DNA of 64,000 nt from Bythopirellula goksoeyrii (GTDB lineage Bacteria > Planctomycetota > Planctomycetia > Pirellulales > Lacipirellulaceae). The DNA lies in the NCBI RefSeq assembly GCF_008065115.1, contig NZ_CP042913.1, positions 5,901,257-5,965,256 of the forward strand, in the 5' to 3' direction. The stretch's first letter is position 1. Each line of letters opens with the position of its first letter. The notes below the pieces were generated by a model. It ran no database searches. It had not been told where the DNA came from and saw only the letters and a list, made by a program, of their open reading frames with translations. The position numbers and the translations under genes are program-made. Positions 24,143 through 41,495 of this stretch are shown here, one piece after another.

Positions 24143-25191
24143 TTAGACAGAGCAATTCCTTGCGGCAGATCTAACGCTAAAGCCGCTCATGCCAAAACGG
24201 TGGGTTGATGGTGGTGTTGTTCGGTGTTGATGAGTCCTTGAGACTCTACGATCTCAGCGGTGGCGTCGACCAATGGACCCCTATTGGTTCCTCCAAGCGG
24301 CACAAGTGGGTTTCTTCTCCGAGGGCTTAGCGCTGACATAACTACAACGGTGATTTTCACCGACGTCAGTTCCAGAGTGCTGCTCTGGACCGAGAATGGT
24401 CCAACTTCAGCAGTTTCGACTAAGCGAAGTTTGCGGGCGGTCGTGCTGACCCATGCAAGTATCGCTCGTAAAACATGCCAGCCGTCTGCGAAATGTCGAT
24501 TGGTGAAAACCTTAGCTCCGGGAGAGACTACTTAAGTCTCAGCTGTTGGCAGAGTTGATCTTTATTGCGTATTCGAATGCAGACTCACCGCTGAGCTGCA
24601 AGCCATCGCTATTGTAGTCGCTGAGCGTCCCGCCCAGGGCGCGAAACTCGCCGCCCGCCGACACCCCCAGAATCGTGTCGATCGTCAGTTCGCCGCCGAG
24701 CAGGTAGGTCACAGTGCCGTCCTGCTGGCTGAGCGTGGCCACGGTCAAGTCGGCCGTCAAGTTTAACTTGCCGCCCGAGTCACTTTCTGTATCTCCCATA
24801 CCGTCAGTCGACAAGAATCTGTTCTCGGCTCGGACTCTCTGAGCGTCGAGGATTTGCCCTGCAACTGTCCGGAAAGCCGAAGGTCTTGGTAAGCACCGCC
24901 TGCATCGCTGAGCTTTGTGGGCTTGCCGAAATCCTGCATTTCCTGGTTGAACTTTTTTCGTTGACAGACTTGTCAAACGTCGTCACGCGCCTAGAGTGCT
25001 CATGCTAGAAGTTTGAGCTGCCGGCTCTACAGGGATAGCGGCCGAAGCAAAAAACATTTGCTCGGCCGACAAGAGGTCCTGGGTAGCTAGGCCAGACAGA
25101 CACACCGCAGCGTTTTTAGGCAGTTTAGCAACACTCTGTGCCTTCGCGATACTCATTTTTTGTAAAACATTACAAGACAAGGAGCCAATTT
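24143..25191. other. gene-poor stretch with possible surface-protein relic
   Basis: No intact gene seen. On the minus strand at about 24539-24800 there is a well-composed beta-rich stretch (LNLTADLTVATLSQQDG, GGELTIDTILGVSAGG, LQLSGESAFEYAIKI) resembling repeats of extracellular adhesin-like proteins. A neighbouring frame at about 24850-24960 reads QEMQDFGKPTKLSD, suggesting frameshifts. A second minus frame at about 24983-25156 starts MSIAKAQSVAKLPKNAA and stops early. I take this as decayed secreted-protein DNA, with low confidence. Confidence 0.3.
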
Positions 25192-25662
25192 ATGAAATTT
25201 AAGCGGCATATGCTTAATGCAGAGACGACTGATAAAGTCGTAGGCTGCCTGCAACAGCGACTTATTGAACTCATCGATCTTGCATTGCAGCTCAAGCAAG
25301 CTCATTGGTGCGTTGTCGGAAACAATTTCCGCGCCGTCCATTTGCAGCTAGATGAAATCATTCTCGCAGTAAGAGACGCTAGCGACGAGGTCGCCGAACG
25401 CCTTTCGACAATCGGCGTGGCCCCCGATGGACGCGCAAACACTGTAGCGAATGGCTCGCAACTGACTGATCTCTCGCGTGAGTTTGAGAGCGTGTCTAAC
25501 ACCGTGACGACGGTCGCTGACCGCATGGATAAGACTATCCAAGGGCTGCGAGACTCAATTGGCAAATTGGGGGAGCTCGATCCCATTAGCGAAGACATGC
25601 TCATCGCTATTACCAGCGGGCTAGAGAAACATCTATGGATGGTCCAAGCACAGGAAGCATGA
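25192..25662 (+). CDS. dps: Dps-family ferritin-like DNA-protection protein
   Basis: 156 residues from ATG 25192, which has AAGGAG 8 bases upstream; the in-frame extension to 25138 does not look like Dps. Four-helix bundle with the Dps signature KQAHWCVVGNNF (H38) and RDASDEVAERL (D65, E69), which form the inter-subunit ferroxidase site. Dps dodecamers oxidise Fe(II) with peroxide and protect DNA. It opens a stress-gene stretch (SDR, stress protein, ferritin, FAD protein). Loss of a few usual C-terminal residues is possible (ends WMVQAQEA) but this is near the normal family end. Confidence 0.9.
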   Translation: MKFKRHMLNAETTDKVVGCLQQRLIELIDLALQLKQAHWCVVGNNFRAVHLQLDEIILAVRDASDEVAERLSTIGVAPDGRANTVANGSQLTDLSREFESVSNTVTTVADRMDKTIQGLRDSIGKLGELDPISEDMLIAITSGLEKHLWMVQAQEA

Positions 25663-25688: not shown

Positions 25689-25712
25689 GTTCCGCCGCAG
25701 TGGCGGAACTTA
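25689..25712 (+). terminator. hairpin after dps
   Basis: Perfect 8-bp stem GTTCCGCC / GGCGGAAC with a 5-base loop, followed by TTATT, located 26 bases after the dps stop. The T-tract is short, so termination is probable rather than certain. The SDR start lies only 23 bases beyond. Confidence 0.5.
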
Positions 25713-25732
25713 TTCCCTGCAAAGGCAAAGAG

Positions 25733-26497
25733 ATGAGCAATCCGCAAAATCCAGTGGCACTAATCACTGGCAGTGGTCGCCCGAGGGTTGGTAATGTCAT
25801 CGCGCGGCACCTTGCAGATCGTGGTTATAGCATAGCCTTGCACTACAATTCTTCGGAGGAAGATGCGATAAAGTCGCGTGATGAGATTCGCGTTATAGGC
25901 TGTGAATGTGAGGCGTTTCAAGCTGACGTCGCTTCCGAATCTGAAGTTGATGAGATGGCCGCCGGAGTGAAGCGGAAATTTGGTCGCTTGGACGTACTTG
26001 TGACAACTTCCTCCATTTGGGGTGAAACTACTTTCGACGACGTTACCAAAGAGCAACTTCACTTGAATTTCGACGTGAACACGTTAGGGACGTTTTTTGC
26101 GGCAAGAGCTGCGGGTCGAATTATGATCGAGCAACCAGAAGGCGGTGCGATCGTCACTGTTGGCGACTGGTCGATCGATCGTCCTTACTTAGACCATGTC
26201 GCGTATTTTATCTCGAAAGGCGCGCTGCCAACGCTAACGCGATTGCTCGCGAGAGAACTTGGCGAGCGCAACCCGAAGGTACGTGTCAACTGTATCCACC
26301 CAGGTCCTGTCATGTTCCCCGGTGATGCGTCAGAGGAAAGAAAAGCGAGGCTCATCGAAGCGACGATTGTTAAATCGGCCGATTGTCCGGAGATGGTTGC
26401 CCAGGCGGTCGAAGCTTTAGTGAACAATAAATTTCTCACGGGCGTGTGTCTGCCTGTGGACGGCGGCCGACACATGTATAGTCCAGGGGAGGTCTAG
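25733..26497 (+). CDS. SDR oxidoreductase, pteridine reductase/FolM-like
   Basis: 254 residues from ATG 25733 (AAAGGCAAAGAG upstream; an in-frame ATG at 25700 would add 11 residues). Classical SDR: cofactor turn TGSGRPRVG near residue 12, with an arginine as in pteridine reductases. The catalytic YFISK (Y-x-x-x-K) motif follows, preceded by VGDWSIDRPYLDH, where PTR1/FolM enzymes have an aspartate instead of the classical serine. C-terminal PVDGGRHMY is standard. I infer reduction of dihydropterins or dihydrofolate, supported by folE and a PTPS gene 7 kb downstream. A generic acetoacetyl-CoA reductase-like SDR is the alternative. Confidence 0.72.
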   Translation: MSNPQNPVALITGSGRPRVGNVIARHLADRGYSIALHYNSSEEDAIKSRDEIRVIGCECEAFQADVASESEVDEMAAGVKRKFGRLDVLVTTSSIWGETTFDDVTKEQLHLNFDVNTLGTFFAARAAGRIMIEQPEGGAIVTVGDWSIDRPYLDHVAYFISKGALPTLTRLLARELGERNPKVRVNCIHPGPVMFPGDASEERKARLIEATIVKSADCPEMVAQAVEALVNNKFLTGVCLPVDGGRHMYSPGEV

Positions 26498-28102: not shown

Positions 28103-29119
28103 TTACAAACCCAGCAAGCGGTCAGCCACGGCTGCACCACTCAAAAAGGCACCTTCTACTCTAGGTCCGCCACACCAGTCGCCGCAAGCTCCGACTTGTA
28201 GACCGGTATCAAACAAACATCGCGACTCCAGTGGCGAGGTCGGTAGAGCGAATCGCCAACGATGTGCTGTGATATACTTGATTGCCCGAGGCTGGGTACC
28301 AATGGATCGCCAGAATTCTTCCAACAGATCAGCCGCCACCTGTTCGGCTGATCGTTCCAAGTTGGTCTCTGACCACTCGGGACTAGCGTGCAATATCCAT
28401 GTCTCTGGTTCGGGAGAGCGATTCGGTTTGCTGTTGTTCCGGGCAATCCAGGAAAGAGGCGACTGGTGTATAAATGCGGCATCGAACGGAAGAGCCAAGG
28501 ATTCTTCCAAAGCGAGCATCACCGCCCAGCAACCACTCATCTCCACGCGATCCGCTTGTTCGGCCAGCTCGGGAACATCCCTGAGCAGCTGCGCCGTCTG
28601 AGGGGCTGGGGCAGAGATGATTACCATGTCGTAGGCGCCCAACTCGGTCCCATCCTCGCTGGCAAGCCACCACCGGCCAAGTAGACGACGTGGCGGCGCT
28701 ACTTTAGTTTGATATTCGATTGATAAGTCGGTCGCCATGTGCTGACAGATGGAATTCATCCCCGGGACAGCGACAAAGCGAACAGTACTCTCATTTTGAT
28801 CTATCGTAACACCCTTTTGAAGGACAATAATCCTCCCGAGCCAAGCAGCTACAACACCTTCATGTTGCAAAGCTTTCACGTAGCCGCGAAATAGAGCGTC
28901 ACGAGCGGTGAAATATTGAGCGCCGTGGTCAAAGTGCAGCGCGTCGTCCGTCCGCCGCGTCGACATGCGACCGCCAACTCCACGGCTTTTTTCGAACACT
29001 TTGACCGACAAACCGTGATCTTGCAAAGTCCGGGCACAGATCAGACCAGAAATCCCAGCGCCAATCACCGCCAATGATGGCATCGATTCACGAGGCAGTC
29101 TGATTGGCAGTTTCGTCAT
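28103..29119 (-). CDS. FAD-dependent oxidoreductase, renalase/COG3380-like
   Basis: 338 residues from ATG 29119. Rossmann FAD motif VIGAGISGLICARTL about 20 residues in, then the arginine-rich KSRGVGGRMSTRR and DHGAQYFTARD stretches that define the renalase-like NAD/FAD oxidoreductases (COG3380). The C-terminal FAD contact is ACGDWCGGPRVEGAFLSG. Such genes often accompany photolyase and pterin genes in bacterial light-stress operons, which fits this neighbourhood. The substrate is unknown. The gene starts 9 bases after the broken bacterioferritin gene, so the two were one operon. A later ATG at 29083 begins right at the FAD motif and is less likely. Confidence 0.82.
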   Translation of the reverse strand: MTKLPIRLPRESMPSLAVIGAGISGLICARTLQDHGLSVKVFEKSRGVGGRMSTRRTDDALHFDHGAQYFTARDALFRGYVKALQHEGVVAAWLGRIIVLQKGVTIDQNESTVRFVAVPGMNSICQHMATDLSIEYQTKVAPPRRLLGRWWLASEDGTELGAYDMVIISAPAPQTAQLLRDVPELAEQADRVEMSGCWAVMLALEESLALPFDAAFIHQSPLSWIARNNSKPNRSPEPETWILHASPEWSETNLERSAEQVAADLLEEFWRSIGTQPRAIKYITAHRWRFALPTSPLESRCLFDTGLQVGACGDWCGGPRVEGAFLSGAAVADRLLGL

Positions 29120-29128
29120 ATAGAGCAA

Positions 29129-29598
29129 TCAAGCGAATTGTGATGAAGCAGACTCGTACTCTTTCAAGAATCCGCGGAAAAGAATAAGGTGCTCCTCTTC
29201 GTCTGCGAGCAATCGGGTGCACAGGTCTTGGCTAACATATTCCTCTCCGTCGGTCGCTCTGATGACTTTGTTGCAGTGTGCGCAAGCTTGCTCCTCGGCA
29301 TCAATGACCGCTTTAATCGCACCGACCACATCGGTTGTTCCATCGATGGGCTGGATCTGATTGCTGAGCGTGAGGGCCGCAGCACCGTGGACAAGGCCAC
29401 CGAGTTGCTTGATTCGCCGTCCCAGTTGCTGCGCATGCATGATTTCTTCCGTGATGTCAGCCGCTAACGATTTCTTAATCTCTTCTGCCCGCACACCGTC
29501 GAGATTGACGCTGTTGGCAAGATAGTTAAGCACCGTTTCGATCTCCATACTATAGGCTGAGAGAGCAGTGAAATCACCTGTTCTTTGTTTTCGGCCAC
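29129..29598 (-). pseudogene. bacterioferritin-like gene with an N-terminal frameshift
   Basis: The open frame (start ATG 29548, 139 residues) reads METVLNYL-like from its second residue (MEIETVLNYLANSVNLDG), but in this family that is an internal position. Upstream, GTG 29598 with TAGGAA before it opens AENKEQVISLLSQ in another frame, and the frames join at CAGCC (about 29556), where one missing base would give the expected LLSQAYSMEIET. Other ferritin features are intact: EEIMHAQQLGRR, DAEEQACAHCNK, LADEEEHLILF. If the deletion is real, only a shortened protein lacking part of helix A could be made from ATG 29548. Confidence 0.7.
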
Positions 29599-30000
29599 GC
29601 TGAGATTCCTAATTTTCTAGATTAACAACCTCTCTAAGACTTTAGGAGCGTCGAACGAAATGACAACGCAATGAGATCTGTTTTCTTCAATTTTATCCGT
29701 GATGCACTATTGAGAATCATTTTTTTGGCGTAAAAGCGATCGAAAACAGTCACTAATGGGACTCAGGCGTACTCTGAGCGGGTGCTTTTCAGCGTATGGA
29801 CAAGAATCGCTACCCTACCCAAGCAGTATTTCAAAGGCCCTAGCAGCTTCTCACGGAGGAAATTGCTGGCGGTGCCTGCATTCAACGGGCAAACATTTAA
29901 AAAAATACTGTATTGCTGCTTGGCAAGTCTGATCGTCCAACTAGTGTTCCATAGTCAGAAAAGGTTGACACTTTGCAATGCGTTCTTGAAAGGATGAGCG
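29599..30000. other. csrA upstream region
   Basis: About 400 bases with no convincing gene; the frame at 29782-29997 lacks family features. It contains the csrA leader. A TTGACA sits at 29965-29970, but no good -10 follows at proper spacing before the csrA start, so a promoter is not claimed. AAGGATGAG just upstream of ATG 30001 is the csrA ribosome-binding site. Confidence 0.45.
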
Positions 30001-30222
30001 ATGTTAGTTCTCGGCAGGAAAGAAGAGCAGACCATCCAGATTGGTAACGAAATCCGCGTTACGATCTTGCGGATCAAGGGAAACTCCGTCAGTGTTGGCA
30101 TAGAAGCACCTGAGCAGGTGTTGATACTACGCGACGAGTTGGCACCCACTGCTCGAGCGTGGGAAGCTGAATCCGACTTGGGTTCTCAGCCACAGGCCAT
30201 GGCACTTGCCATCTGCAAGTAA
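30001..30222 (+). CDS. csrA: carbon storage regulator CsrA
   Basis: RNA-binding post-transcriptional regulator that binds GGA motifs near ribosome-binding sites. The 73-residue protein opens MLVLGRKEEQTIQIG and contains IRVTILRIKGNSVSVGIEAP and the RNA-contacting ILRDEL region, all in the family order. The C-terminal extension after about residue 50 is unstructured in most homologues. Strong ribosome-binding site AAGGATGAG. Planctomycetes often hold several csrA copies; this one lies in the stress region away from flagellar genes. Confidence 0.95.
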   Translation: MLVLGRKEEQTIQIGNEIRVTILRIKGNSVSVGIEAPEQVLILRDELAPTARAWEAESDLGSQPQAMALAICK

Positions 30223-30685
30223 CAGACGGCTCAAATCTGCAAGATCGTGTACCTTTGGTTCGTTTGCATATCGGCCCCGGACTATTATTTCAATGTCTAA
30301 TACTCGATGCTGAGCGTAGTTGCAAATGGAAAGTGAACGGTCTGCATTATTAGCGTACTTGCGAAGCCTGGTTTAAGAATCTCTATCAAAACCGCGAGGG
30401 GATACTGAGGCGTATCGGCAACGATCTTGACACGCATGAGGCAAAGAAACATTTGCAACTTTGAAGAATGTTTTTCCTGCCCTGCGCAGAACTGTTTCGC
30501 TATCGGAGTGGGAACGAGTGGTTTGTGGCCCATTTCCTGTTTCAAAGTGTTCGGCCGACAACATCACGATGCCAGATGAACCATGAGTCACAAATCCACT
30601 TCCCAACAGCCAGAGTTTGATAGGGTCCTGGATACGACCTGGACCGAGACACCAGTAACCAAATTTTAAAATGATAGGGAAAACG
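30223..30685. other. intergenic with one tiny ORF
   Basis: About 460 bases. The overlapping minus-strand frames at 30297-30606 have no family features. A 28-codon plus frame (ATG 30582 to TAA 30668: MSHKSTSQQPEF and so on) lies just before the small membrane protein gene; it could be a leader peptide or chance. Nothing else seen. Confidence 0.35.
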
Positions 30686-30862
30686 ATGAGAAGAATTAAT
30701 ATGGCAAAAATCGGTTTTGTTGTAGCCGCCGCTGCGTCGTTCCTCTTTTCTGTCTACCTCTGGTTTACAGGGAGTAGAGAAGAGGGCCTGTTCGTCGGAA
30801 TATGGGTTCCTTCAATCCTCAGCTTTGGAGCCCTCATGTTGAGCGGAAAATCTCATGCATAA
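30686..30862 (+). CDS. small two-helix membrane protein
   Basis: 58 residues from ATG 30686, chosen because AGGG lies 8 bases upstream; in-frame ATGs at 30671 and 30701 are alternatives. Two hydrophobic segments (GFVVAAAASFLFSVYLW and IWVPSILSFGALML) flank a charged turn TGSREEGLF. Its 3' end overlaps the next micro-gene by 8 bases, which in turn overlaps the SpoIIE-type gene, so the three look translationally coupled. No family recognised; a small membrane partner of the phosphatase is an inference from the coupling. Confidence 0.65.
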   Translation: MRRINMAKIGFVVAAAASFLFSVYLWFTGSREEGLFVGIWVPSILSFGALMLSGKSHA

Positions 30863-30956
30863 CATTGGCATATTTGTGTTTGGCTTAGCGGTATTCGGAG
30901 CTACCATTGCTGCTGCTTTCTGTGCTTTAATTGCAACGGATTACCCTGAGGAATGA
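30855..30956 (+). CDS. 33-residue single-helix membrane peptide
   Basis: ATG 30855 to TGA 30956 encodes MHNIGIFVFGLAVFG, then ATIAAAFCALIATD and YPEE: one membrane helix with a short acidic tail. It starts inside the last codons of the preceding membrane protein gene (8-base overlap), and its stop overlaps the next gene's ATG in an ATGA junction at 30953. Two tight overlaps on the same strand make a chance frame unlikely, although no homologue is recognised. Confidence 0.5.
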   Translation: MHNIGIFVFGLAVFGATIAAAFCALIATDYPEE

Positions 30957-31870
30957 CACTCACTGAGTTGCGATTTTGCTATTTACTTGCATACGATTCT
31001 TTGCGGAGACGGTATCAACCAATGGAAAAAACTGACCCAGAGCGCATGGAATGCATGGAGGTGTGGGGTGGCAATCAAGCTGTGCAGCGCACTTTTATAA
31101 CTCCGGGGCTAAAGATCTATATCGATAGTCAGCCTTACGGTCAGGCACCTGGAGGCGGAGACGTCTATTACCTCTCCTCCTGTGCGTCTGGACGCATTAC
31201 ACGAATGTTGTTGGCGGATGTCAGTGGACATGGAGAGTTAGTATCGCAGACGGCGGTTGGATTGCGTGACTTGATGCGACGCAACGTCAATTACGTCAAG
31301 CAAACTCGCTTCGTGCGAGCGATGAATCGGCAGTTTGCTGATCTCGGTGAGCAAGGAGGGTTTGCCACAGCCCTAGTAAGTACTTTTTTTGCGACAACGA
31401 TGACCTACTCTCTATGCAACGCTGGGCACCCTGTTCCGCTTGTTTTTCGTCGCGGAACGTCCCAATGGTCAGAGCTCAAGAATGAAGCTAGCTGTTCGAG
31501 GCCAATATCTGACACACCACTGGGAGTCGTTGATGAAGCGTCTTACGGCCAACTCGATGTGAGACTTGAAGCCGGTGATATGGTGCTCAGTTTCAGCGAT
31601 GCCGTTACGGAGTCGGAAGACGGAGACGGTCGGCAACTAGGAGAAGCAGGTGTCCTGCGACTAGTACGTGAACTGGGAACGCAGGACTCCGAGGAAATCG
31701 TTCCCGCACTAGTCGAGCGAATCAGAGGATTGCGAGACAGCAACCTCCGCCAAGATGATGCGACATTTCTCCTAGGTCAAGCAACGGGCGGTGGACCGTC
31801 GATGAAGAACAACCTGTTAGCCCCGCTTCGCTTCCTGCGCCGGATTGCTGATCACACCAGAATAGCCTAA
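30953..31870 (+). CDS. SpoIIE/PP2C-type serine phosphatase (catalytically intact copy)
   Basis: 305 residues; no sensor or receiver domain is attached. ATG 30953 is supported by the ATGA overlap with the upstream micro-gene, while ATG 31022 (MEKTDPERMECMEV) matches the start of its paralogue and may also be used. PPM metal-site motifs are complete: GGGDVYYLSS, LLADVSGHGEL, FSDAVTES, and RQDDATFLL. Such enzymes usually dephosphorylate an anti-sigma antagonist. It shares the N-terminal CMEVWGGN motif and the C-terminal NLLAPLR tail with the gene at 34169, marking a duplicated pair. Upstream micro membrane proteins may tether it. Confidence 0.85.
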   Translation: MTLTELRFCYLLAYDSLRRRYQPMEKTDPERMECMEVWGGNQAVQRTFITPGLKIYIDSQPYGQAPGGGDVYYLSSCASGRITRMLLADVSGHGELVSQTAVGLRDLMRRNVNYVKQTRFVRAMNRQFADLGEQGGFATALVSTFFATTMTYSLCNAGHPVPLVFRRGTSQWSELKNEASCSRPISDTPLGVVDEASYGQLDVRLEAGDMVLSFSDAVTESEDGDGRQLGEAGVLRLVRELGTQDSEEIVPALVERIRGLRDSNLRQDDATFLLGQATGGGPSMKNNLLAPLRFLRRIADHTRIA

Positions 31871-32007
31871 ATTCTCCACATATTTTATTTGCTAGATCAC
31901 ATTGACCCTTGCCGACCTCACACTCAATCCTCGCAAACTTGAAGAACTACGACGCGCTGCATCGAAAATACGCTAAGTCCCACCATCAAGAAAAATCTTA
32001 GATTCAA

Positions 32008-32478
32008 CTAATGCTGCTGAAATTGCTGTCGGATTTGTTCCATCCGCCTTCGATTGACCCCAAAATCAGAACGCCCCAATCGTGCAGCCGAGCGAAAGTG
32101 AATAAGGTTTTCCTTTGCGTCAATTGCCAGTTCGACGTCATCTACGAATCCAAGCAGCAGGCTGCTGAATTCGGCGTGGACGTAACCGGTTTGAGAAGAG
32201 ACTATTCGGCTCCGCGGCATCGCTTGAATGATTGATTCCAGCTGGCGTTGGGTCTCCTTGGCCGAAAGAGTGTAAGGTATTGAATCGATAGAATGTTCGG
32301 AATCCTTGTCCTGGGAGGAAACACAGTTCGGGTAGTTGGGGCACTCTGCAAGGCGACCGTTGATCATCCCGAGCGTATGCAATGGATGCGTATAGGAGTT
32401 TGCCCATCGCATGCCGACCAAGATTACAAATAGCGATGCCGCCAGCCACAAAACCATAGTTTTCTTCGCCATCGACAC
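32008..32478 (-). CDS. DUF1499-family membrane-anchored protein
   Basis: 156 residues. One N-terminal helix (about 8-26), then the family signature CPNYPNCVSSQ at about residues 46-56, SIDSIPYT, and a C-terminal VDDVELAIDAKENLIHFRSAARLGRSDFGVNRRR region, all characteristic of DUF1499. The cysteines could be structural or metal-binding. Function is unknown; in several bacteria DUF1499 genes sit near photolyase, pterin or stress genes, which fits here. It is transcribed convergently with the first SpoIIE-type gene. Confidence 0.85.
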   Translation of the reverse strand: MSMAKKTMVLWLAASLFVILVGMRWANSYTHPLHTLGMINGRLAECPNYPNCVSSQDKDSEHSIDSIPYTLSAKETQRQLESIIQAMPRSRIVSSQTGYVHAEFSSLLLGFVDDVELAIDAKENLIHFRSAARLGRSDFGVNRRRMEQIRQQFQQH

Positions 32479-32930
32479 TTTGCTTGCTTTCCATAGACGT
32501 GACCGAACTTATCACTTGCCTTTATCCTATCACATTAGAGGCTTGGCAAGCCTTGATGACGGACTGTTGTTGGCGGCTGGGTTCACGGATTGCGGCCGGC
32601 TTCCCACGTTCGCTCACTACTCTCCCGGAGTCGACGTCGAGACCTTTGGCCTCCAGAATTGCGAGGCAATCATGACAAACGCTGGAACTTCCGCGGGAGA
32701 AACAGTGACCGTTGATGATCGCTGGGGCTCAACATGACGAGCTCGCCATACTCAGCATTCCATGCCCGGTACCCGTCTTCGAAGCTTCTTCCACGAGAAT
32801 CTACTCAGCAGATGTCAAGTTGGAGAGCCTTTTCGCTAGAAATTCAGAATTCTTAGTTGTCATCAACGACATACCGCCTACAGTCTCCATATCTGCTACC
32901 AATCTCTCACTGCTAGCGAGTCAAATCACC
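32479..32930. other. folE upstream region
   Basis: About 450 bases between the divergent DUF1499 gene and folE. A plus frame continues in phase into folE from 32712, but that part (MMIAGAQHDELAIL) is not FolE-like and is treated as leader. Another plus frame around 32560-32737 reads DDGLLLAAGFTDCG and GVDVETFGLQNCEA. It is well composed but unrecognised and without a start, possibly another gene relic. Confidence 0.35.
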
Positions 32931-33623
32931 ATGCATACTGTTTTGGAACTGTCTGCTTCCTCTCCGTGGCATCCACAAAGACATGCCAGTTTGCCCGTTC
33001 TGCAATCCGAAGAAGACAAGGTAAATCAGCAATCCCCAAGTGCCCAACCGGGCGAAGTCGATCTGGAGTCAATTCAAGCTGCCGTGCGGACTATCTTAAA
33101 GGCAGTTGGCGAAGATCCGGATCGTGACGGTTTGAAGGAAACCCCTCGTCGCGTTGCCAAGATGTATGCGGAAATGTTTGAGGGCTTGCACCTTGACCCG
33201 GCTCGCCATCTGCAAGTTTTGTTCGCAGAGGAATATGACGAACTCGTATTGGTTCGTGATATCCCATTCACTAGCATGTGTGAGCATCACCTGTTGCCAT
33301 TTACGGGAGTAGCCCACGTCGGTTACATCCCTCAAGGTCACGTCACCGGATTGAGCAAGCTGGCCCGCGTGGTCGAAGAAATGGCTCGCCGTCCGCAAGT
33401 GCAGGAACGGATGACCCACAAGATTACCGAGTTGATCGAAGCCGAGCTGCAAACTACCGGCGTGGGTGTCGTTATGCAAGCGGAACACTCATGTATGTCC
33501 ATTCGCGGCATTAAAAAGCACGGCAGCTCAACCATCACGAGCGCATTTCGAGGAACGCTCAAAACGAGCCTCTCAAGCCGCAATGAATTTTTGTCAATGA
33601 TTGATACGCGATCCCGCGGTTAA
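32931..33623 (+). CDS. folE: GTP cyclohydrolase I
   Basis: Converts GTP to 7,8-dihydroneopterin triphosphate, first step of folate, tetrahydropterin and queuosine precursors; cytosolic. 230 residues from ATG 32931, with a low-complexity N-terminal extension before the conserved core from about residue 43. Zinc ligands C117 and H120 in MCEHHLLPF and C188 in EHSCMSIRG are present, as is the GYIPQGHVTGLSKLAR segment. The start is uncertain because the frame is open to 32712 and no ribosome-binding site is strong. It is followed at 26 bases by a PTPS/QueD gene. With the SDR upstream this could supply a reduced pterin cofactor. Confidence 0.93.
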   Translation: MHTVLELSASSPWHPQRHASLPVLQSEEDKVNQQSPSAQPGEVDLESIQAAVRTILKAVGEDPDRDGLKETPRRVAKMYAEMFEGLHLDPARHLQVLFAEEYDELVLVRDIPFTSMCEHHLLPFTGVAHVGYIPQGHVTGLSKLARVVEEMARRPQVQERMTHKITELIEAELQTTGVGVVMQAEHSCMSIRGIKKHGSSTITSAFRGTLKTSLSSRNEFLSMIDTRSRG

Positions 33624-33649
33624 TTTCCCACTACCAAAAGCAGTCAACC

Positions 33650-34129
33650 ATGATTATTCAAAAGCAGTACAAGTTTTACGCCGCTCATCGCAACGAAGAA
33701 CTCGAAGATAAGTGCCGCAACCTCCACGGACATCGCTATGGAATCACCTGTTTTTTCGAAGTAGAACGTACAGGTTCGTTGTCAACCCTTTTCGGTGACT
33801 TCGATCGCAAGATCGAGCCGTTTCTTAAATCAGAATATGACCACGGCATGATGGTCAATATCAAGGATACGCTTTATGAGACGCTCATGAATCACGTGCT
33901 GCGAACGGGCGAGAAACTCAAACTGAAGCGGTTTTCTCAACCGACGACGGTCGAGAATTTGGCCCATCAACTTTTCACCGAAATTACCGACATGGGATTT
34001 CGCTTAAGTTGTTTAGAAGTACGCGAAACCGATACCTCTGTTGTAAGCTATACGCGAGAAGATTGGGTGACCGATAGTCGTTATTTTGCCAATTCCAAAA
34101 CTGCCGATACTGAGTCGCTGTCTGAGTAA
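33650..34129 (+). CDS. 6-pyruvoyltetrahydropterin / 6-carboxytetrahydropterin synthase (PTPS/QueD family)
   Basis: 159 residues. Zinc histidines H13 (FYAAH), H26 and H28 (CRNLHGHRY) are present, with the family cysteine C22 in the C-x-x-x-H-G-H motif. The C-terminal LEVRETDTSVVSY provides the substrate glutamate. It uses the product of the adjacent folE. QueD makes the queuosine precursor and PTPS makes the biopterin precursor; without queC or queE nearby, and with a pteridine-reductase-like SDR in the region, a tetrahydropterin role is as likely. Only 26 bases separate it from folE, so they form an operon. Confidence 0.88.
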   Translation: MIIQKQYKFYAAHRNEELEDKCRNLHGHRYGITCFFEVERTGSLSTLFGDFDRKIEPFLKSEYDHGMMVNIKDTLYETLMNHVLRTGEKLKLKRFSQPTTVENLAHQLFTEITDMGFRLSCLEVRETDTSVVSYTREDWVTDSRYFANSKTADTESLSE

Positions 34130-34168
34130 CAGTTCTTTCTTAATTCTACTTTGAAATAGAGATCTGAT

Positions 34169-35032
34169 ATGACTTCTGTGACCTTAACTAACGAAAACGA
34201 ATCAAGCCTAAAGTGCATGGAGGTTTGGGGCGGCAATGGCAGCCGAAAGAACCATTTCGTTCGACCTGGTTTGGATGTTTGGATTCATAGCCAGGCTGTC
34301 AGTTCATCCGCTGCTGGCGGTAGTGATCTCTATCTGCTGTCTTCATGCTCTTCAGGGCGTATCACGCGAATGATGGTGGCGGACGTCTGTAGCCAGGGCT
34401 CCCATTTCGCTGAATTAGCGGAGGAAATCCGGGAGTTGATGAAGCGAAACATCAACACCATTCGGCAGACGCGAGTCGTGCGTGAAATCAGTCGGCGATT
34501 AGTAGAGAGTTCCAGGCACGGTTGTATCGCAACAGCGCTGATCGGCACTTATTTTGCGCCAACTCGCAAACTTGTTTTATGCAATACCGGCAATCCCCCG
34601 CCACTTTTGTACCGCGCCGCGCATCAAGAGTGGTCAGTCTTGAAGCAAGTTCCGCAGAACACGACCGCAATCCACAAGTCGTTTATGGTCAGCGACTTTG
34701 AGGAATACCAATACTTTGAAACACAACTCGATTTTGGAGATATGCTTCTCAGCATTGGTAATGCACTAACCGAATGTCGTAGCAAAGACGGAAGAATCAT
34801 CGGCATGCATGGTTTGGAGGAACGTGTTCGGCATCTCGATCCAAGGCGACCAGGAGAGCTGGTTGCCGCGTTAACGGAAGAACTCAAGCAAGAACATCGG
34901 GACAATCTCTCCATTGACGACGCGACGGTCTTACTCTGGCAGGTAACAAAAACTTCCGTTCCCTGGCGAGACAACTTGTTAGCACCTCTTCGTTATTTTC
35001 AAGGTGCGAATGACAACACCAACATCGAATAG
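34169..35032 (+). CDS. SpoIIE-like protein with degenerate metal-site motifs (probable pseudophosphatase)
   Basis: 287 residues, paralogous to the gene at 30953: same CMEVWGGN opening, same order of motifs, and same NLLAPLR tail followed by a D-x-T-x-I ending. Active-site motifs have drifted. LADVSGHG of the paralogue is VADVCSQG here, losing Gly-His. FSDAVTE is IGNALTE, replacing a metal-binding Asp with Asn. The last DDAT motif is kept. It is probably a poor or dead phosphatase that still binds the same partner. It follows the PTPS gene at 39 bases and precedes the Nei-type glycosylase at 15 bases. Confidence 0.8.
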   Translation: MTSVTLTNENESSLKCMEVWGGNGSRKNHFVRPGLDVWIHSQAVSSSAAGGSDLYLLSSCSSGRITRMMVADVCSQGSHFAELAEEIRELMKRNINTIRQTRVVREISRRLVESSRHGCIATALIGTYFAPTRKLVLCNTGNPPPLLYRAAHQEWSVLKQVPQNTTAIHKSFMVSDFEEYQYFETQLDFGDMLLSIGNALTECRSKDGRIIGMHGLEERVRHLDPRRPGELVAALTEELKQEHRDNLSIDDATVLLWQVTKTSVPWRDNLLAPLRYFQGANDNTNIE

Positions 35033-35047: not shown

Positions 35048-35839
35048 ATGCCAGAAGGCCATACTGTGCATCGACTTGCACTCGACCACTCGAAACTGTT
35101 TGCAGGGCAGCGATTGAAGGTATCTTCTCCGCAAGGTCGCTTTGAGGAAGGTGCCCAACTTCTCGACGGCAAAACGCTCAAATCGGTCGAAGCGCACGGC
35201 AAGCATCTTTGTTATCACTGGTCCGGCGGAACACTATTGCACGTCCACTTGGGTCTCTATGGAAAGTTCCGTCTCCACAGCTTGCCAACCCCGGAACCTC
35301 GCGGGCAAGTGCGTCTGCGTGTGATCGGGAAAGAAAGAGCATTTGACCTCAATGGCCCTTTCACCTGCCAGACTATTACTAGACAGGAATGGATGGCAAT
35401 TCAGGATCGCTTAGGGCCAGATCCCTTGCGAGCGGAAGGTGACCTAGAGCAAGTTTGGGTGAGAATTAGTCACAGCCGCGCGGCCATTGGTAGCTTGTTA
35501 CTAAATCAGTCGGTCATCGCGGGAGTCGGGAACATTTACCGCAGCGAAGTCTTGCACTTGCTCGGCATTCATCCAGAAACACCTGGCCTGGAGTTGTCTC
35601 GTAAGCAAGTCGAATCGCTCTGGTCCAAGCTGACAACACTACTGAGAATCGGCGTAAAGTACAATCGCATCATCATCGCCGAGCCGAAAGATATCGGCAA
35701 ACCGCGCAGCCGGATGAATCGCCAGGAAAGACTACTGGTTTACAAACGAGCAGCTTGCAGTCGCTGTGATGCCGAAATCGAGAGCTGGTTGCTGGGTGCC
35801 CGAAAAGTGTTTTCTTGTCCCAAATGCCAACTGCGCTAG
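35048..35839 (+). CDS. Fpg/Nei-family DNA glycosylase (endonuclease VIII-like)
   Basis: Base-excision repair glycosylase/AP lyase for oxidised bases; 263 residues. Starts MPEGHTVHR, giving the catalytic P2/E3 pair; His after MPEG points to the Nei/Nei2 branch. Helix-two-turn-helix region NQSVIAGVGNIYRSEVL near 155-171 and a C-terminal zinc finger CSRCDAEIES to CPKC near 238-261 are complete. It follows the degenerate SpoIIE gene by 15 bases, so pterin, phosphatase and repair genes are co-oriented here. Substrate preference (oxidised pyrimidines) is inferred from the branch. Confidence 0.9.
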   Translation: MPEGHTVHRLALDHSKLFAGQRLKVSSPQGRFEEGAQLLDGKTLKSVEAHGKHLCYHWSGGTLLHVHLGLYGKFRLHSLPTPEPRGQVRLRVIGKERAFDLNGPFTCQTITRQEWMAIQDRLGPDPLRAEGDLEQVWVRISHSRAAIGSLLLNQSVIAGVGNIYRSEVLHLLGIHPETPGLELSRKQVESLWSKLTTLLRIGVKYNRIIIAEPKDIGKPRSRMNRQERLLVYKRAACSRCDAEIESWLLGARKVFSCPKCQLR

Positions 35840-35983: not shown

Positions 35984-36255
35984 TCACTTGAGATCTGCGC
36001 CGAAAGTGTTCCGAAGCGACTGAGCCCTTTTACGGATCACTTTTAGCTCAGCCCTTGGCTTTCGCTCAAGATTCTTGAGTTGCATCGACATGCGGTTGTT
36101 GCCTTGCAGTCGTTTCTTGTGCCGCGACAAAAAATCCCAGTAAACCGGGGTGAACCGGCAGGCGTTTTCATCCTTTTTTGGTGTAAGTGGTTCTCCCATT
36201 AACTGGGCAAAATGAACGTTAAGGATGAATTGTTTATCTAGAGGTGGCTTTGATC
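35984..36255 (-). pseudogene. PhrB/CryB-type photolyase C-terminal remnant
   Basis: The minus strand encodes PKKDENACRFTPVYWDFL, then SRHKKRLQGNNRMSMQL, KNLERKPRAEL and a short helix before the stop at 35984. This matches the last 60 or so residues of iron-sulfur bacterial cryptochromes and photolyases (deoxyribodipyrimidine photolyase-related proteins); the cysteine in NACRF corresponds to a cluster ligand. The frame is open upstream only to a stop near 36258. No FAD-binding or antenna region exists, although ATG 36199 could start a 71-residue peptide. It is a truncated relic. Confidence 0.75.
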
Positions 36256-36435: not shown

Positions 36436-37389
36436 ATGGCCGCTCTGACCGTCATCACCAACCATAAGTCACCCATTCCTAGGCAGCAGGACCATCGCGA
36501 ATCTGATCGGCTTCGCGCGATGAATCTTTTGCGGTTAGAAATCGATTTTATTCCCAACCGTGAATTTCGTGCTGAGGATACGTTTTGTGATGAACTAGTG
36601 ACATCTACGCTGGATACTGATAGTGGCCCCAGTCAAGTAGGTGTCGACTTACCAGCCCACCTGAAGCGAATGTGTAACTGCGATTTGCTCACTCCTGATC
36701 AAGAGCGAGCCCTGTTTCGTGAGATGAATCTCTTGAAATATCGGGCCAACTTGATGCGCACCCGCATCGATCTGGACCAAATCGAAGCGACCGTTCTGGA
36801 TACGCTCGAGTCGCTCTTAGCTCAGTCTCAGCAGATTCGCGATCACCTCATCAAGGCAAACATGCGTCTGGTGATGTCAATTGTGAAGAAATTCGTGACC
36901 CCACAACATTCATTCGACGATTTGCTGAGCGAGGGTGTTCTCACACTGATGAAGGCCGTGGAGAAGTTTGACTTCGACCGTGGATTTCGCTTCAGTACCT
37001 ACGCGTATCGATCCATCATGCGACACGTCTATCGCACAGTGAGTCTCGCACAAGTGGAAGAAGCTACCTTCACGAGGGGTGCTGAAGAGTGGGCTTTCGA
37101 AGCTGGCAAGACACAATCAGGCTCTTCTATGAGTGAGCAAGTCTGGAGCAATCTCCGGGTCTTGATGACCACGCTGCTTGACCAACTCGACCGTCGCGAA
37201 CGATTTATCATCCGCAGTCGGTATGCGCTAGGATCTCATCGCAAGGTACGAACGTTTCAATACTTGGCCGACAAGTTAGGCGTATCGAAGGAGCGAGTCA
37301 GGCAACTGGAAAGCAGAGCCGTCTCGAAATTACAGACGCTTGCTGCGGAGTCTGCAAATGACGATTTTTGGGCGGCTGCAATGGTCTAG
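36436..37389 (+). CDS. RNA polymerase sigma factor, RpoD-like (group 2/3)
   Basis: 317 residues, too short for primary RpoD. An N-terminal region without recognised features (1-75) is followed by a region 1.2-like block (LTPDQERALFREMN). Then comes sigma2 with LIKANMRLVMSIVKKF, FDDLLSEGVLTLMKAVEKFDF and RGFRFSTYAYRSIMRHV. A short region 3 and sigma4 close it, with helix-turn-helix FQYLADKLGVSKERVRQLE near 280-298. Sigma2 and sigma4 are both complete. It lies between the photolyase relic and the carbonic anhydrase relic. A light- or stress-response regulon for the neighbouring genes is an inference from position only. Confidence 0.88.
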   Translation: MAALTVITNHKSPIPRQQDHRESDRLRAMNLLRLEIDFIPNREFRAEDTFCDELVTSTLDTDSGPSQVGVDLPAHLKRMCNCDLLTPDQERALFREMNLLKYRANLMRTRIDLDQIEATVLDTLESLLAQSQQIRDHLIKANMRLVMSIVKKFVTPQHSFDDLLSEGVLTLMKAVEKFDFDRGFRFSTYAYRSIMRHVYRTVSLAQVEEATFTRGAEEWAFEAGKTQSGSSMSEQVWSNLRVLMTTLLDQLDRRERFIIRSRYALGSHRKVRTFQYLADKLGVSKERVRQLESRAVSKLQTLAAESANDDFWAAAMV

Positions 37390-38551: not shown

Positions 38552-38845
38552 ATGAGTGCGGACGATCTTCAACACCGAGGTTGGACGTTTTTGTCCAATC
38601 ACGCGCATGTGCTGTTATGCCTGACGCGTGATTCGACAATGCGAATACGCGACATCGCGTTGGAGGTCGGCATTACCGAGCGGGCAATTCGGAATATTAT
38701 CTCCGATCTTGAAGAAACAGGTTACGTCGAACGTGTACGCATCGGCCGCCGCAATTCGTATCGAATTGACAAATCACTGCACCTGCGGCATCCCATCGAA
38801 CAACGCAAAACAATCGCGGATCTGATCCGAGCCATTCACGACTAG
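38552..38845 (+). CDS. winged-helix transcriptional regulator upstream of the DAB operon
   Basis: 97 residues, one winged helix-turn-helix: TFLSNHAHVLLCLTRD, then RIRDIALEVGITERAIRNIISDL (helix-turn-helix near 31-53) and the wing ETGYVERVRIGRRNSYRID. The C-terminal HPIEQRKTIADLI helix probably dimerises. Small MarR/ArsR-like proteins with this FLSNHAHVLL opening are widespread and poorly characterised. It lies 64 bases upstream of dabB on the same strand, so control of inorganic-carbon uptake is a reasonable inference. No ligand-binding cysteines are seen. Confidence 0.8.
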   Translation: MSADDLQHRGWTFLSNHAHVLLCLTRDSTMRIRDIALEVGITERAIRNIISDLEETGYVERVRIGRRNSYRIDKSLHLRHPIEQRKTIADLIRAIHD

Positions 38846-38909
38846 ACGGCACCCGAATGGCGTGTGCCGAATTGAATAGACGAACAAAAGCGGCGTAACG
38901 GAGCATTTG

Positions 38910-41495
38910 ATGGACTTTATGTTGCACAACTATCCGATCCTCATTCCTCTCGCACCGCTCGTGGCGGCGATTTACAACGCGTTTTCGATCGGGAGCGCGG
39001 GCGATAGGAAGTACGGATTCGGCATGTTTGCTCACATCGTGGCCTTTGTCGCGGCGGTTGTAGCGCTCGGCGAAGCAGTCGCGGCAGGCCATGTGGCCAG
39101 GCATTTGTTGCTCTGCGAGACTTCCTGGAGTTTCTTGCCGACCATCGAGCTATCCATCGACCGCTTGAGTACTGTGATGATGGTCGTGATCTCCAGCATC
39201 GGTCTGGTTTTGTACCGCTATTCCATCCGCTATCTGCAGTCGGATCTCGGACAGTCGCGTTACCTGGCATTGCTGTCGCTCACCATTTCGACGCTGCTGG
39301 TCATGGTGTCGAGTCGCGATCTGGTACTACTGTTTCTGGCCTGGCAATTGTTGAGCTGGCTACTGTGCCTGCTGGTCCATAACTACTCGCATCTGCCGAC
39401 GGCGCGCAGTTCGTTTCGCACGTTTATTATGATGCGCGTGGGAGACATCGCCTTTCTCGCGGGTATCGTATTGGCATTTCAATTCTATGGGACCGTCGAA
39501 TTCTCACAGCTCTTCGAACGAGCTCAGACAACTCCGATCACGTTGCGACCGTTTGGCAGCGGCTTTGAAATAAGTGGAGCCACGGTTGTGACGTTGCTGA
39601 TCTTCGTGGGAGCCATGAGCAAGTCGGCCCAGATTCCGCTCCACATGTGGTTGCCCGATTCGCTGTACGCCCCCACACCAATCCACGGACTCCTGCATGC
39701 CGGGATCATCAATGCCGGCGGCTTCCTGCTGATGGAACTCGCACCGTTGTTCGTGCTGAGCCGCCCCACACTTCACTTCATATTTGCTGTCGGCCTGATG
39801 ACCACGGTTCTGGGTACAAGCATGAAGCTTGTTCAAAACGACATCAAGAAGACGCTGGGGTATTCGACCATTGGACAGATGGGCTTCATGATCATGGAGT
39901 GCGGGCTGGGAGCCTTTTCGCTGGCGATCTTCCACCTTATCGCACACGGCCTGTTCAAAGCCACGATCTTTCTCAACTGCGGCAACGTGATCCACGAGAC
40001 ACGGCAAGAACCGAAGCGGCCGTTCACACCGACAGAGCGGGAGGCATTGGCGGCCTCAAACTGGGCGGTAGGGTTTGTCATGTCTCTCGTCTTGCCGTTA
40101 CTCATTCTGCTTGGAGCACACGAGTTACTACACGTTCCATTGCGCGACTCCCAGGGACTGGTGATCTTTGTGTTCTTTAGTTGGGCCACAGTATCGCAAG
40201 CGAAGTTGACGTTGTATCGGCTACATCGGACAGGATCGTTCAAGGCGCAATGCTTACTGCTGGGTGTAATTGCTGTGGTCACGTTAGTTTACCTGTTCGC
40301 GGCAGAACTTTTTACCAATTTCCTTTATCCTTCGCCGGAAACTGTGATCGAACACTTCCAGGCTGCCGCTTTGCCAAGCGGCCTATTCGCGGCGATTGTC
40401 ATCGGCGGTGCGGTAATCGTCATTCTTGGATGGGTCGTCGCATTCCCCAAGCGGCAAGGCCAGGGTTTCCATTGGCCAAAGGCGATCACAAACATCCGGA
40501 ACACGCTTTATATGTTCTTTGTGAACCGCCTCTATCTGGACGGCGTTGCCCTCAGGCTGCGTCTGGTCGTCAAGAAAGTCGCCGAGTCCCTGAATCGCAA
40601 CCGGTTTTTCTTTCCCTGCGCGGCGGTGTTCGCGCTGGCTTTGGCAGGAGCCAGATGGACGTCCCCTGCAGACGTATCGATTGGAGATCTACTGGCACTG
40701 CTCGCAATGGGCCTGCTGCTCCCGCTCTTTCCACTTCACTCGGCCTATGTCGCCGCGTTGACCAGATTGCCTCGTGTTTTGGTTTTCCTGATGTCCGCGA
40801 TCATGCCGCTCGCGGGCCTGTTTGGGCTGATGCAGCTTGTTCCGAAGATTCCACCGACTCTCATGCCCGTTGTCTCGGCACTCGCGCTGGTCGGGGCGAT
40901 GTACGCTTCGATCAAGGCGGTGATTCAAAAGAGCGTTCCGCATCTGATCGCGTATGCGGGACTTGCCTTCTATTCGATTCTTTGGTGGCAAATCGCGAGT
41001 GTCGGCAGCGTCACTCGAGAAGCTATCGTCTATGCCTATTCTGTCGTACTGGTGATCGGTGGGATTCTGCTGGCCTGGGACCGTTTGCGGGTTCGCTACG
41101 GTAACCTTCCGATGAACAGGATCGGTGGTCTTGCTCGTCCCATGCCAAAGTTCGGATTGTGTCTGGCGCTGCTGGTGATGGCGGCGGTCGGATTGCCTCC
41201 CTTTGGTCTGGGATTCGGTTTTGTCGGTCTGATGCTTGGTTCGCCGACCGTGACTGCCGGAACGTTCGTCGTTTTGCTGACATGGTTCGGCGCGTCATGG
41301 TACTTGTTCAAGTTAATGCAGCGACTCCTGTTCGGTCCCCACCGGGAAGATATTCGCTATGACGATCTTAAACCTGTAGAGATCGCAGCTATCGCAGGCG
41401 TACTCCTGTTGTTGGTTGCGCTTAGCATCGCGCCACAGGGACTGTTTGCGTTCGGCTCGGAAGAAGTGGCTCGTATCGCGATGGAGATGAAATGA
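38910..41495 (+). CDS. dabB: DabB, NuoL/MrpA-like membrane subunit of the DAB inorganic-carbon transporter (extended)
   Basis: Cation-coupled membrane subunit driving CO2/bicarbonate accumulation with DabA. 861 residues from ATG 38910 (CGGAG upstream). The first 560 residues are a NuoL-type proton channel: FLAWQLLSWLLCLLVHNY, AMSKSAQIPLHMWLPDS with the conserved Lys, and TPIHGLLHAGIINAGGFLL. DabB is usually about 550 residues. Here a further set of helices (about 560-861) follows, with KSVPHLIAYAGLAFYS and VGLPPFGLGFGFVGLML, resembling NuoM/NuoN C-terminal halves. That suggests a fusion with a second antiporter-like unit. It overlaps dabA by ATGA. Confidence 0.85.
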   Translation: MDFMLHNYPILIPLAPLVAAIYNAFSIGSAGDRKYGFGMFAHIVAFVAAVVALGEAVAAGHVARHLLLCETSWSFLPTIELSIDRLSTVMMVVISSIGLVLYRYSIRYLQSDLGQSRYLALLSLTISTLLVMVSSRDLVLLFLAWQLLSWLLCLLVHNYSHLPTARSSFRTFIMMRVGDIAFLAGIVLAFQFYGTVEFSQLFERAQTTPITLRPFGSGFEISGATVVTLLIFVGAMSKSAQIPLHMWLPDSLYAPTPIHGLLHAGIINAGGFLLMELAPLFVLSRPTLHFIFAVGLMTTVLGTSMKLVQNDIKKTLGYSTIGQMGFMIMECGLGAFSLAIFHLIAHGLFKATIFLNCGNVIHETRQEPKRPFTPTEREALAASNWAVGFVMSLVLPLLILLGAHELLHVPLRDSQGLVIFVFFSWATVSQAKLTLYRLHRTGSFKAQCLLLGVIAVVTLVYLFAAELFTNFLYPSPETVIEHFQAAALPSGLFAAIVIGGAVIVILGWVVAFPKRQGQGFHWPKAITNIRNTLYMFFVNRLYLDGVALRLRLVVKKVAESLNRNRFFFPCAAVFALALAGARWTSPADVSIGDLLALLAMGLLLPLFPLHSAYVAALTRLPRVLVFLMSAIMPLAGLFGLMQLVPKIPPTLMPVVSALALVGAMYASIKAVIQKSVPHLIAYAGLAFYSILWWQIASVGSVTREAIVYAYSVVLVIGGILLAWDRLRVRYGNLPMNRIGGLARPMPKFGLCLALLVMAAVGLPPFGLGFGFVGLMLGSPTVTAGTFVVLLTWFGASWYLFKLMQRLLFGPHREDIRYDDLKPVEIAAIAGVLLLLVALSIAPQGLFAFGSEEVARIAMEMK

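Follow-up and report, generated by a model that had tools for sequence, protein, structure and literature searches.

What might a bacterium do with a second copy of a phosphatase whose metal site has degraded? This question is raised by a 64,000-nucleotide (nt) stretch of the genome of the planctomycete Bythopirellula goksoeyrii (contig NZ_CP042913.1, positions 5,901,257 to 5,965,256; the whole stretch is called the window, and coordinates without another label are positions in it), in which two paralogous genes of the SpoIIE/RsbU type of PP2C phosphatases lie on the forward strand: A (31022–31870) and B (34169–35032). We conclude that B is probably a pseudophosphatase, induced by stress, that tunes partner-switching by non-catalytic means and that belongs to a gene island with its own sigma factor and its own promoter-like element. 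The paralogy, the loss of a metal ligand and of a loop, the purifying selection, the position of B in the island in most of its genomes, and the element are read from sequence; the loss of activity, the induction and the non-catalytic action are what we infer from them. An altered copy that is kept in several genera, often in a cluster of the light-damage type, suggests signalling without catalysis.

Both proteins score well above the 25-bit cut-off of the Pfam SpoIIE family (PF07228; 97.6 bits for A, 70.4 bits for B) and are 42% identical to each other, in agreement with an initial annotation of this DNA that had proposed a SpoIIE-type paralogue pair. The motifs quoted there are all present in the two open reading frames (ORFs), that is, a CMEVWGGN start and an NLLAPLR tail common to A and B, ADVSGHG and SDAVTE in A, and VADVCSQG and GNALTE in B. 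The shared N- and C-terminal elements fall outside the Pfam domain; Pfam detects no sensor domain in either protein, and neither matches an NCBIfam family at an E-value of 0.001. The source genome (6.47 Mb, one contig) contains five SpoIIE domain matches, and A is 24–25% identical to the other two homologues found in the genome search with A as the query. The longest ORF of A spans 30953–31870, its 30953 start overlapping the stop codon of a micro ORF of 33 amino acids (aa); this start is not conserved, and the conserved one, common to Bythopirellula polymerisocia, is MEKTDPERMECMEVWGGN at 31022. To us A looks like an ordinary PP2C phosphatase of the SpoIIE/RsbU type, from a planctomycete family marked by the CMEVWGGN start; on the sequence evidence, B is the product of an old duplication inside the A/B family.

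The relationship of the two types was examined in an alignment of 50 relatives with the conserved start (two duplicates, L049 and L064, of loci L012 and L010 and two fragments, L062 and L063, were excluded from the motif table and the tree). In the maximum-likelihood tree the 14 B-type sequences are one clade (ultrafast bootstrap, UFBoot, 100) nested among the A-type sequences, the deeper A branches being weakly supported; a fifteenth member, from genome G612, was assigned by its profile score and motifs (ADVGGVNN, YSNSLTEC), outside the tree. According to published accounts of Bacillus subtilis SpoIIE, manganese is held by Asp628, Asp746 and Asp795 (PMC3517971, PMC5468089). When the A-type profile is aligned to this protein, the motif-8 Asp falls on the SDGIFE stretch, whose Asp is probably Asp746; in the B of the window, Asn198 occupies this position, and CSQG replaces the SGHG loop. 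The Asp746-equivalent is replaced in 14 of the 15 B members (13/14 aligned plus G612) and in 0/36 A sequences, and the SGHG loop is altered in 15/15 (14/14 aligned plus G612) and in 0/36; five tabulated aspartates and GHG are kept in all 36 aligned A-type sequences. The A of the window has the SpoIIE PP2C domain, the PP2C fold, intact metal-site aspartates (including D216 and D268) and the GHG loop, whereas B has the fold and lacks the Asp746-equivalent and the SGHG loop. Elsewhere in the site the B members vary: the motif-1 Asp is kept in 10/15, the motif-2 Asp in 13/15 and the second motif-11 Asp in 14/15, and the 14 aligned sequences have Cys74 (in 12), Phe80 (in 14) and Glu179 (in 14), each rare or absent in A. 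The alignment to solved relatives therefore upholds the motif loss announced for B in the initial annotation as far as the Asp746-equivalent and the GHG loop are concerned; the motif-1, motif-2 and motif-11 aspartates are still there.

B has nevertheless been maintained. The B proteins of the source genome and B. polymerisocia (locus L010) are 95% identical, and for this one species pair the ratio of nonsynonymous to synonymous substitution rates (dN/dS) is 0.181 for B and 0.133 for A; no stop codon falls inside the B matches in 15/15 genomes, and the B clade also has conserved non-catalytic motifs. AlphaFold2 models of both proteins have a mean predicted local distance difference test score (pLDDT) of 84, and the best match of each is the RsbU domain of Rv1364c (3ke6), where A gives VIA Z 24.7 and a root-mean-square deviation (rmsd) of 2.3, and B gives Z 19.5 and rmsd 3.7, in each case over 222 residues; TAB1 is among the VIA rows for B (Z 14.5), which reflects a common fold and is not evidence of function. 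The clade-wide loss of the metal ligand and the loop, taken with purifying selection, makes it most likely that B is catalytically dead yet maintained, its fold retained and its metal site degraded. B thereby shows three sequence marks of pseudophosphatases of the PPM family: a degraded metal site, conservation in a clade and purifying selection.

The distribution of the pair was followed in 396 genomes of the order with a B profile (E-values up to 1e-30); an earlier search with A covered 296 genomes of the order and returned both full-length relatives and remote SpoIIE domains. The B profile matches 43/396 genomes, 15 of which carry a B-type sequence (359–454 bits), the next score, from an A-type sequence, being 326. 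A scan of 397 genomes from the class gives no B-type score outside the order; there, sequences related to A and B are widespread but all score below the B-type range. A is present in 10/15 B genomes and an A-type member in 28/381 others (Fisher 4.3e-8, related genomes not being independent). Ten genomes with eight genus labels therefore carry both genes, 28 carry an A-type gene only (several, e.g., G598, G614, G662 and G663, classed by score alone and not motif by motif), and five carry B only. The pair of an intact and a degraded copy is thus borne out in several genera; as to the condition that the initial annotation named as a refutation, that homologues would occur singly with random neighbours, singles are indeed frequent, but the neighbours of B are not random.

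In the window, B is part of a compact operon on the forward strand that consists of folE, encoding GTP cyclohydrolase I (32931–33623; PF01227 250.5 bits and TIGR00063 over cut-off; the ORF opens at 32712, and start alignment places the conserved start at 32931), a gene for a PTPS/QueD-family protein (33650–34129; PF01242 67.5 bits, under the NCBIfam cut-offs for QueD and 6PTHBS), B, and, as the last gene, one for an Fpg/Nei-type DNA glycosylase (35048–35839; PF06831 and PF01149 over cut-off). The gaps are 26 nt (folE–PTPS), 39 nt (PTPS–B) and 15 nt (B–glycosylase), so that folE and PTPS do lie just upstream of the second copy as first described. The order folE-PTPS-B is intact in four genomes, that is, the source genome (G000), G127 (same genus label), G174 and G107. 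In a fifth, G083, which belongs to another family (f15), a PTPS gene broken into two frames adjoins B (L048, 9017–9318), ~230 nt downstream of a match to the promoter-like element; the PTPS–B link may therefore predate the four intact genomes. The pairing of B with folE and PTPS is real in these genomes and narrow, not general, and the picture of a phosphatase pair bracketing pterin genes holds for the source genome and B. polymerisocia, no other genome bracketing them closely. In the window, a gene for a DUF1499 protein (32008–32478, reverse strand; PF07386 128.4 bits) also lies between A and folE, and in G099, a genome with A and no B, folE/PTPS is found close to A. A pterin-specific system as a general rule was considered and rejected, because intact folE-PTPS occurs with B in only the four genomes and FolE lies near 4/14 B and 3/37 A loci.

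The wider neighborhood of B is an island of a recognizable type. We clustered the neighbor families, named them by Pfam and NCBIfam, and counted them by tblastn within 9 kb of 14 B and 37 A loci, remnants included (L049, L064 and L062 were excluded, the fragment L063 was kept as an A row, and the A counts are unfiltered and represent upper bounds). A sigma-70 gene is found near 9/14 B loci vs 2/37 A loci, both of the latter in genomes whose island also has B; the corresponding counts are 7/14 vs 2/37 for CarH/LitR, 7/14 vs 3/37 for CMAS, 6/14 vs 1/37 for DUF1295, 5/14 vs 1/37 for DUF1365, 5/14 vs 2/37 for the photolyase-related DPRP, 5/14 vs 4/37 and 6/14 vs 6/37 for two kinds of flavin oxidase, and 6/14 vs 6/37 for short-chain dehydrogenases/reductases (SDRs). 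When the B side is recounted with matches of at least 100 bits and at least 120 aa, the numbers (of 14) are sigma 9, LitR 5, CMAS 5, DUF1365 5, DUF1295 5, DPRP 4, FolE 4 and PTPS 4. On recheck, CMAS in the window and L010 proved to be short remnants, the DPRP of the window is 71 aa, LitR is truncated in L010 and L013, DUF1295 in L054 is incomplete, close to the end of a contig, and PTPS in L048 is broken. Near the B of G612 there are sigma, LitR, CMAS, DUF1365, flavin oxidase, DUF1295 and SDR matches. The sigma-70 family gene of the window lies at 36436–37389 (forward strand; PF04542 and PF04545 over cut-off).

Two known regulons give these genes a common theme. In Pseudomonas, the light-induced genes under LitR control are reported to include those for photolyase (PhrB), UfaM, CryB and FolE, with SDR, FAD (flavin adenine dinucleotide) oxidoreductase, FolM and FolX genes in the same regions (PMC9758184), and the singlet-oxygen regulon of RpoE in Rhodobacter is reported to contain phrA, a cyclopropane-type synthase gene (cfaS), rpoHII, an SDR gene, folE2 and a fasciclin gene (PMC7074977). 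Because its gene content matches that of these regulons, the B island is best read as a photo-oxidative-stress island; this content and the shared promoter-like element lend support to the tie with light stress that had been suggested at the outset.

The promoter-like element was recognized by aligning the region upstream of folE in four genomes, which gives TTGTCA-N13-GCCTA-NN-GT, with the general form TTGTCA-N13-(G/T)CCTAnnGT. In the window it occurs as TTGTCA-N13-GCCTACAGT at 32857–32884 (forward strand), ~47 nt upstream of folE, where it leaves a footprint in the four genomes; again at 24970–24997 (forward), upstream of genes for a ferritin-family protein (25192–25662, forward; PF00210 61.9 bits; ATG start, the ORF opening at 25138) and an SDR (25700–26497, forward; PF13561; best NCBIfam match NF006598, a pteridine reductase, with 170.5 bits below the cut-off of 288); and, as a TCCTA variant, at 29639–29666 (reverse), upstream of genes for a ferritin-like protein (29129–29548, reverse; PF00210 59.3 bits) and an FAD-dependent oxidoreductase of the amine-oxidase type (28103–29128, reverse; PF01593 66.4 bits). 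A scan of 28 loci (532 kb) gave 18 matches of at least 11/12 vs 1, 0 and 1 in first-order Markov sequences (some loci overlap, and a few sites are counted twice). The exact pattern TTGTCN-N13-KCCTANNGT is found three times in the 6.47-Mb genome, all within 8 kb and in the island, and its reversed control five times. The pattern matches 10 times in six of the 14 further B genomes, eight times within 10 kb of B (three in G107, two in G127, and one each in G174, G083 and G269, the last ~40 nt upstream of B); counting the source genome, 7/15 B genomes have the element, of which six have a site near B and G216 has the two distant sites. A search of 43 genomes of the family yields 22 matches (control 41). 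Nine come from G000, G127, G174 and G107, each in the island and each with TTGTCA; the other 13 come from genomes without a detected B, and none of these has TTGTCA. No match occurs in G119, G048 or G123, which are also B genomes of the family. Since the pattern is no commoner than its reversed control, it is the location of the element, not its number, that is unusual.

The element was partly derived from the loci on which it was tested, that is, the four folE sites served as seeds, and the T variant was allowed once the island sites had been seen; without seeds and T variant, 4/5 remaining matches in B genomes are near B (binomial ~3e-9 for a 30-kb target, a rough figure). Neither in the window nor in L010 or L067 does an exact element directly precede A. 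Within 320 nt upstream of A, the best score is 9/12 for the window, L067 and L048; five other A loci score 8 to 10, and L071 reaches 11/12, which may be real or chance. Just upstream of B, L050, L052 and L053 score 10/12, which is suggestive only, and L054, L055, L056, L058 and L013 score 8 or 9. The sigma factor of the island is a candidate reader of the element. A match of the TTGTCT form also lies ~6 kb from a LitR-like gene in a genome without B (G095:C1:701032); the promoter type may therefore be older than B.

How might a dead phosphatase act? SpoIIE and RsbU have been described to dock folded STAS substrates through loops (PMC11418112), and SpoIIE to be switched on by dimerization through switch helices (PMC5468089); a dead copy could therefore trap the substrate or associate with an active phosphatase. 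A would be a natural partner of B but not the sole one, because five B genomes lack A. We find no STAS or anti-sigma gene in the window, that is, no STAS and anti-sigma kinase genes beside the phosphatases; the source genome has four STAS matches and a single RsbW-type match over cut-off, none of them in the window, and the RsbW-type match adjoins a STAS gene at 3.06 Mb. In the sequence of events that we envisage, the island sigma would read the promoter-like element, and stress would then induce folE-PTPS-B-glycosylase and the neighboring operons. The steps that follow are the least certain: B might dock phospho-STAS proteins without catalysis or, alternatively, use its switch helices to pair with an RsbU-type phosphatase, be it A or another, and might so tune the output of partner-switching during the response. 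We offer only tentatively the most specific version, in which B is made by the regulon through the island sigma and a private promoter and, by trapping phospho-STAS or pairing with phosphatases, serves as a timer or gain control of the photo-oxidative response.

Several observations weigh against B as a stress-induced pseudophosphatase of this island. Five of the 15 B genomes (G174, G022, G180, G062 and G612) have no A in the assembly, and related genomes are not independent samples. Exact element matches are absent from 8/14 further B genomes, G216 has its two matches, one of the TTGTCA form, away from B, and in these 14 genomes the reversed-pattern control gives 25 matches vs 10 for the pattern. 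At the L055 B locus, SDR is the only island match. The island of the window has no LitR, the single LitR-like copy of the genome lying ~149 kb from B, and in 6/6 aligned LitR-like proteins (L067, L011, L047, L050, L053, L118) the cobalamin-ligand His is Tyr (Tyr177). Finally, Adhaeretor mobilis B (L012) alone in its clade retains the motif-8 Asp, and since the B of the window retains the motif-1, motif-2 and motif-11 aspartates and is altered at the Asp746-equivalent and the GHG loop, weak or altered activity may persist.

The last point is the core of an explanation in which B is an enzyme of altered chemistry, the Asn in motif 8, the retained aspartates and the new cysteines (ADxC, TEC) holding one different metal for a slow or redox-gated reaction. 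The retention of the three aspartates in 10, 13 and 14 of the 15 members, Cys74 in 12/14 sequences and the Adhaeretor protein fit this idea; PHLPP2, which is described as holding one zinc with a likely Cys ligand, is a partial precedent but is inactive (PMC12002173). We consider such an enzyme unlikely, however: the motif-1 Asp is E or G in 5/15 members, the GHG loop is changed in every one, and the losses vary between members and so look like relaxed catalytic constraint. The different degradation of the metal motifs in each lineage could also be expected of a functionless gene that decays while carried in the operon; the dN/dS of B in the one species pair, the lack of stops in all 15 genomes and the conserved non-catalytic motifs speak so clearly for maintenance that we give decay hardly any weight.

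The decoy proposed in the initial annotation makes B a dedicated dominant-negative partner of A that acts through heterodimers or by competing for one phospho-STAS substrate. It is the rival that we take most seriously, if still a doubtful one: A is overrepresented in B genomes (10/15 vs 28/381), the two proteins share terminal elements outside the Pfam domain, and SpoIIE is reported to be activated by switch-helix dimerization (PMC5468089), but in several genomes the two genes are not linked, no exact element lies directly upstream of A in the three loci named above, and because 5/15 B genomes lack A, B is not an obligate decoy of A. It has also to be asked whether B could be an anti-repressor partner of a LitR-like repressor in light or stress, like the short LOV protein for class II LitR of Pseudomonas. 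A LitR-like gene is present in 131/396 genomes of the order, in 15/15 with B vs 116/381 others (Fisher 3.5e-8; the query profile was made from the LitR genes of B genomes and may favor them) and in 18/28 of the A-type-only genomes. It is at most 15 kb from B in seven genomes (G107, G269, G123, G174, G119, G612 and G048). Truncated copies accompany B at two further loci (L010, L013); four drafts have the gene on a different contig from B, and in G216, as in the source genome, it is distant. The Tyr in place of the cobalamin-ligand His could mean that a partner is needed (PMC9758184). Nevertheless, no fold logic connects a PP2C domain to LitR, and 116 genomes have the LitR-like gene without B; we regard this role as quite improbable. 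On present evidence we prefer to see B as a pseudophosphatase that tunes partner-switching, with A as one of its possible partners.

The LitR-like proteins themselves depart from the known class. We take the His of the DxHxxG motif and the E-H residues to have the roles assigned to them in CarH/LitR proteins; the planctomycete proteins lack the cobalamin-ligand His of DxHxxG and, when aligned to 8jbs, have an E-R instead of the E-H pair. As to the MerR-type helix-turn-helix and B12-binding domains of CarH/LitR, the L067 protein has PF02607 and PF12728 over cut-off and PF02310 and PF00376 below, and L011 scores 45 bits with the CarH model vs a cut-off of 400. Because Tyr replaces the cobalamin-ligand His, these proteins may not be B12 photoreceptors; possibly they form a LitR class of planctomycetes with a different way of sensing.

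Among known systems, B. subtilis SpoIIE/RsbU and the RsbU domain of Rv1364c (3ke6) share the fold and the Pfam family with A and B, and A retains their catalytic motifs; unlike them, A and B have no Pfam-detected sensor domain, have the CMEVWGGN start and NLLAPLR tail and no anti-sigma or STAS gene in the window, and B has lost the motif-8 Asp and the SGHG loop. TAB1 and PHLPP2, pseudophosphatases of the PPM family, resemble B in that a PP2C fold with a degraded metal site has been kept in evolution (PMC12002173); they are animal proteins, whereas B is bacterial, belongs to the SpoIIE/RsbU branch and is encoded in an operon with pterin and DNA-repair genes. The Pseudomonas LitR regulon has similar gene content and a LitR/CarH-like regulator (PMC9758184), to which the planctomycete island adds a sigma factor, SpoIIE-type phosphatases and its own promoter-like element. 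The Rhodobacter RpoE/ChrR regulon has CMAS, SDR, FolE-type, fasciclin and photolyase-type genes in common with the island, and the excerpted account of it mentions no phosphatase pair (PMC7074977); unlike that system, the island sigma is RpoD-like, with sigma-70 regions 2 and 4. HltA of Synechococcus, an RsbU-like phosphatase reported to be needed for high-light tolerance, is like A and B an RsbU-type PP2C tied to light stress; unlike them, it has a GAF domain and a phosphatase domain described as functional, and its excerpted description mentions no inactive sister (PMC9430166). Among the matches listed when open-licence literature was searched by title and start of abstract, no paper describes a SpoIIE/RsbU-type pseudophosphatase in bacteria, nor the A/B pair or the island. 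Pseudophosphatases have been studied mainly in eukaryotes; a clade-wide bacterial example tied to a light/oxidative-stress island would, if true, mean that dead enzymes can tune partner-switching networks. The same reading predicts that planctomycetes have a photo-oxidative-stress regulon, for which it offers a sigma factor and a promoter as candidates.

Upstream of A are two micro ORFs on the forward strand, hydrophobic by eye, of 58 aa (30686–30862; 63 aa from 30671) and 33 aa (30855–30956); both are conserved in B. polymerisocia and Adhaeretor, and they overlap by 8 nt, as first noted. The pair is intact before A in three close genomes only and degenerate in a fourth; micro ORF 1 is near, not directly upstream of, A-type copies in L054 and L069, is interrupted by a stop in L080, and has a dN/dS of 0.6 (58 codons only). 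The proposed membrane tethering of A through the micro ORFs finds no support: beyond the close genomes their association with A is inconsistent. Further upstream is a CsrA-family gene (30001–30222; CsrA matches lie near 4/14 B and 5/37 A loci), and between it and the micro ORFs are short remnants of a CMAS-type gene (30285–30572; in L010, 4792–5013; ~100 bits each).

On the other side of the operon, ~4.5 kb of B. polymerisocia sequence (L010) between the glycosylase and sigma genes is absent from the window (35984–36199, junction near 36169), comprising most of the DPRP gene, a flavin oxidase gene, a fasciclin gene and the truncated LitR and leaving the 71-aa DPRP remnant. Beyond the sigma gene, 38552–44290 begins with the gene of a small winged-helix regulator, after which come two large ORFs, of 862 and 932 aa, that may resemble the DAB-type pair for inorganic carbon uptake. 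The source genome also has a second cluster of the light type (L118; G000:C1:5778001-5797000), with LitR-like, SDR, DPRP-like, SDR+DUF2867 and fasciclin matches.

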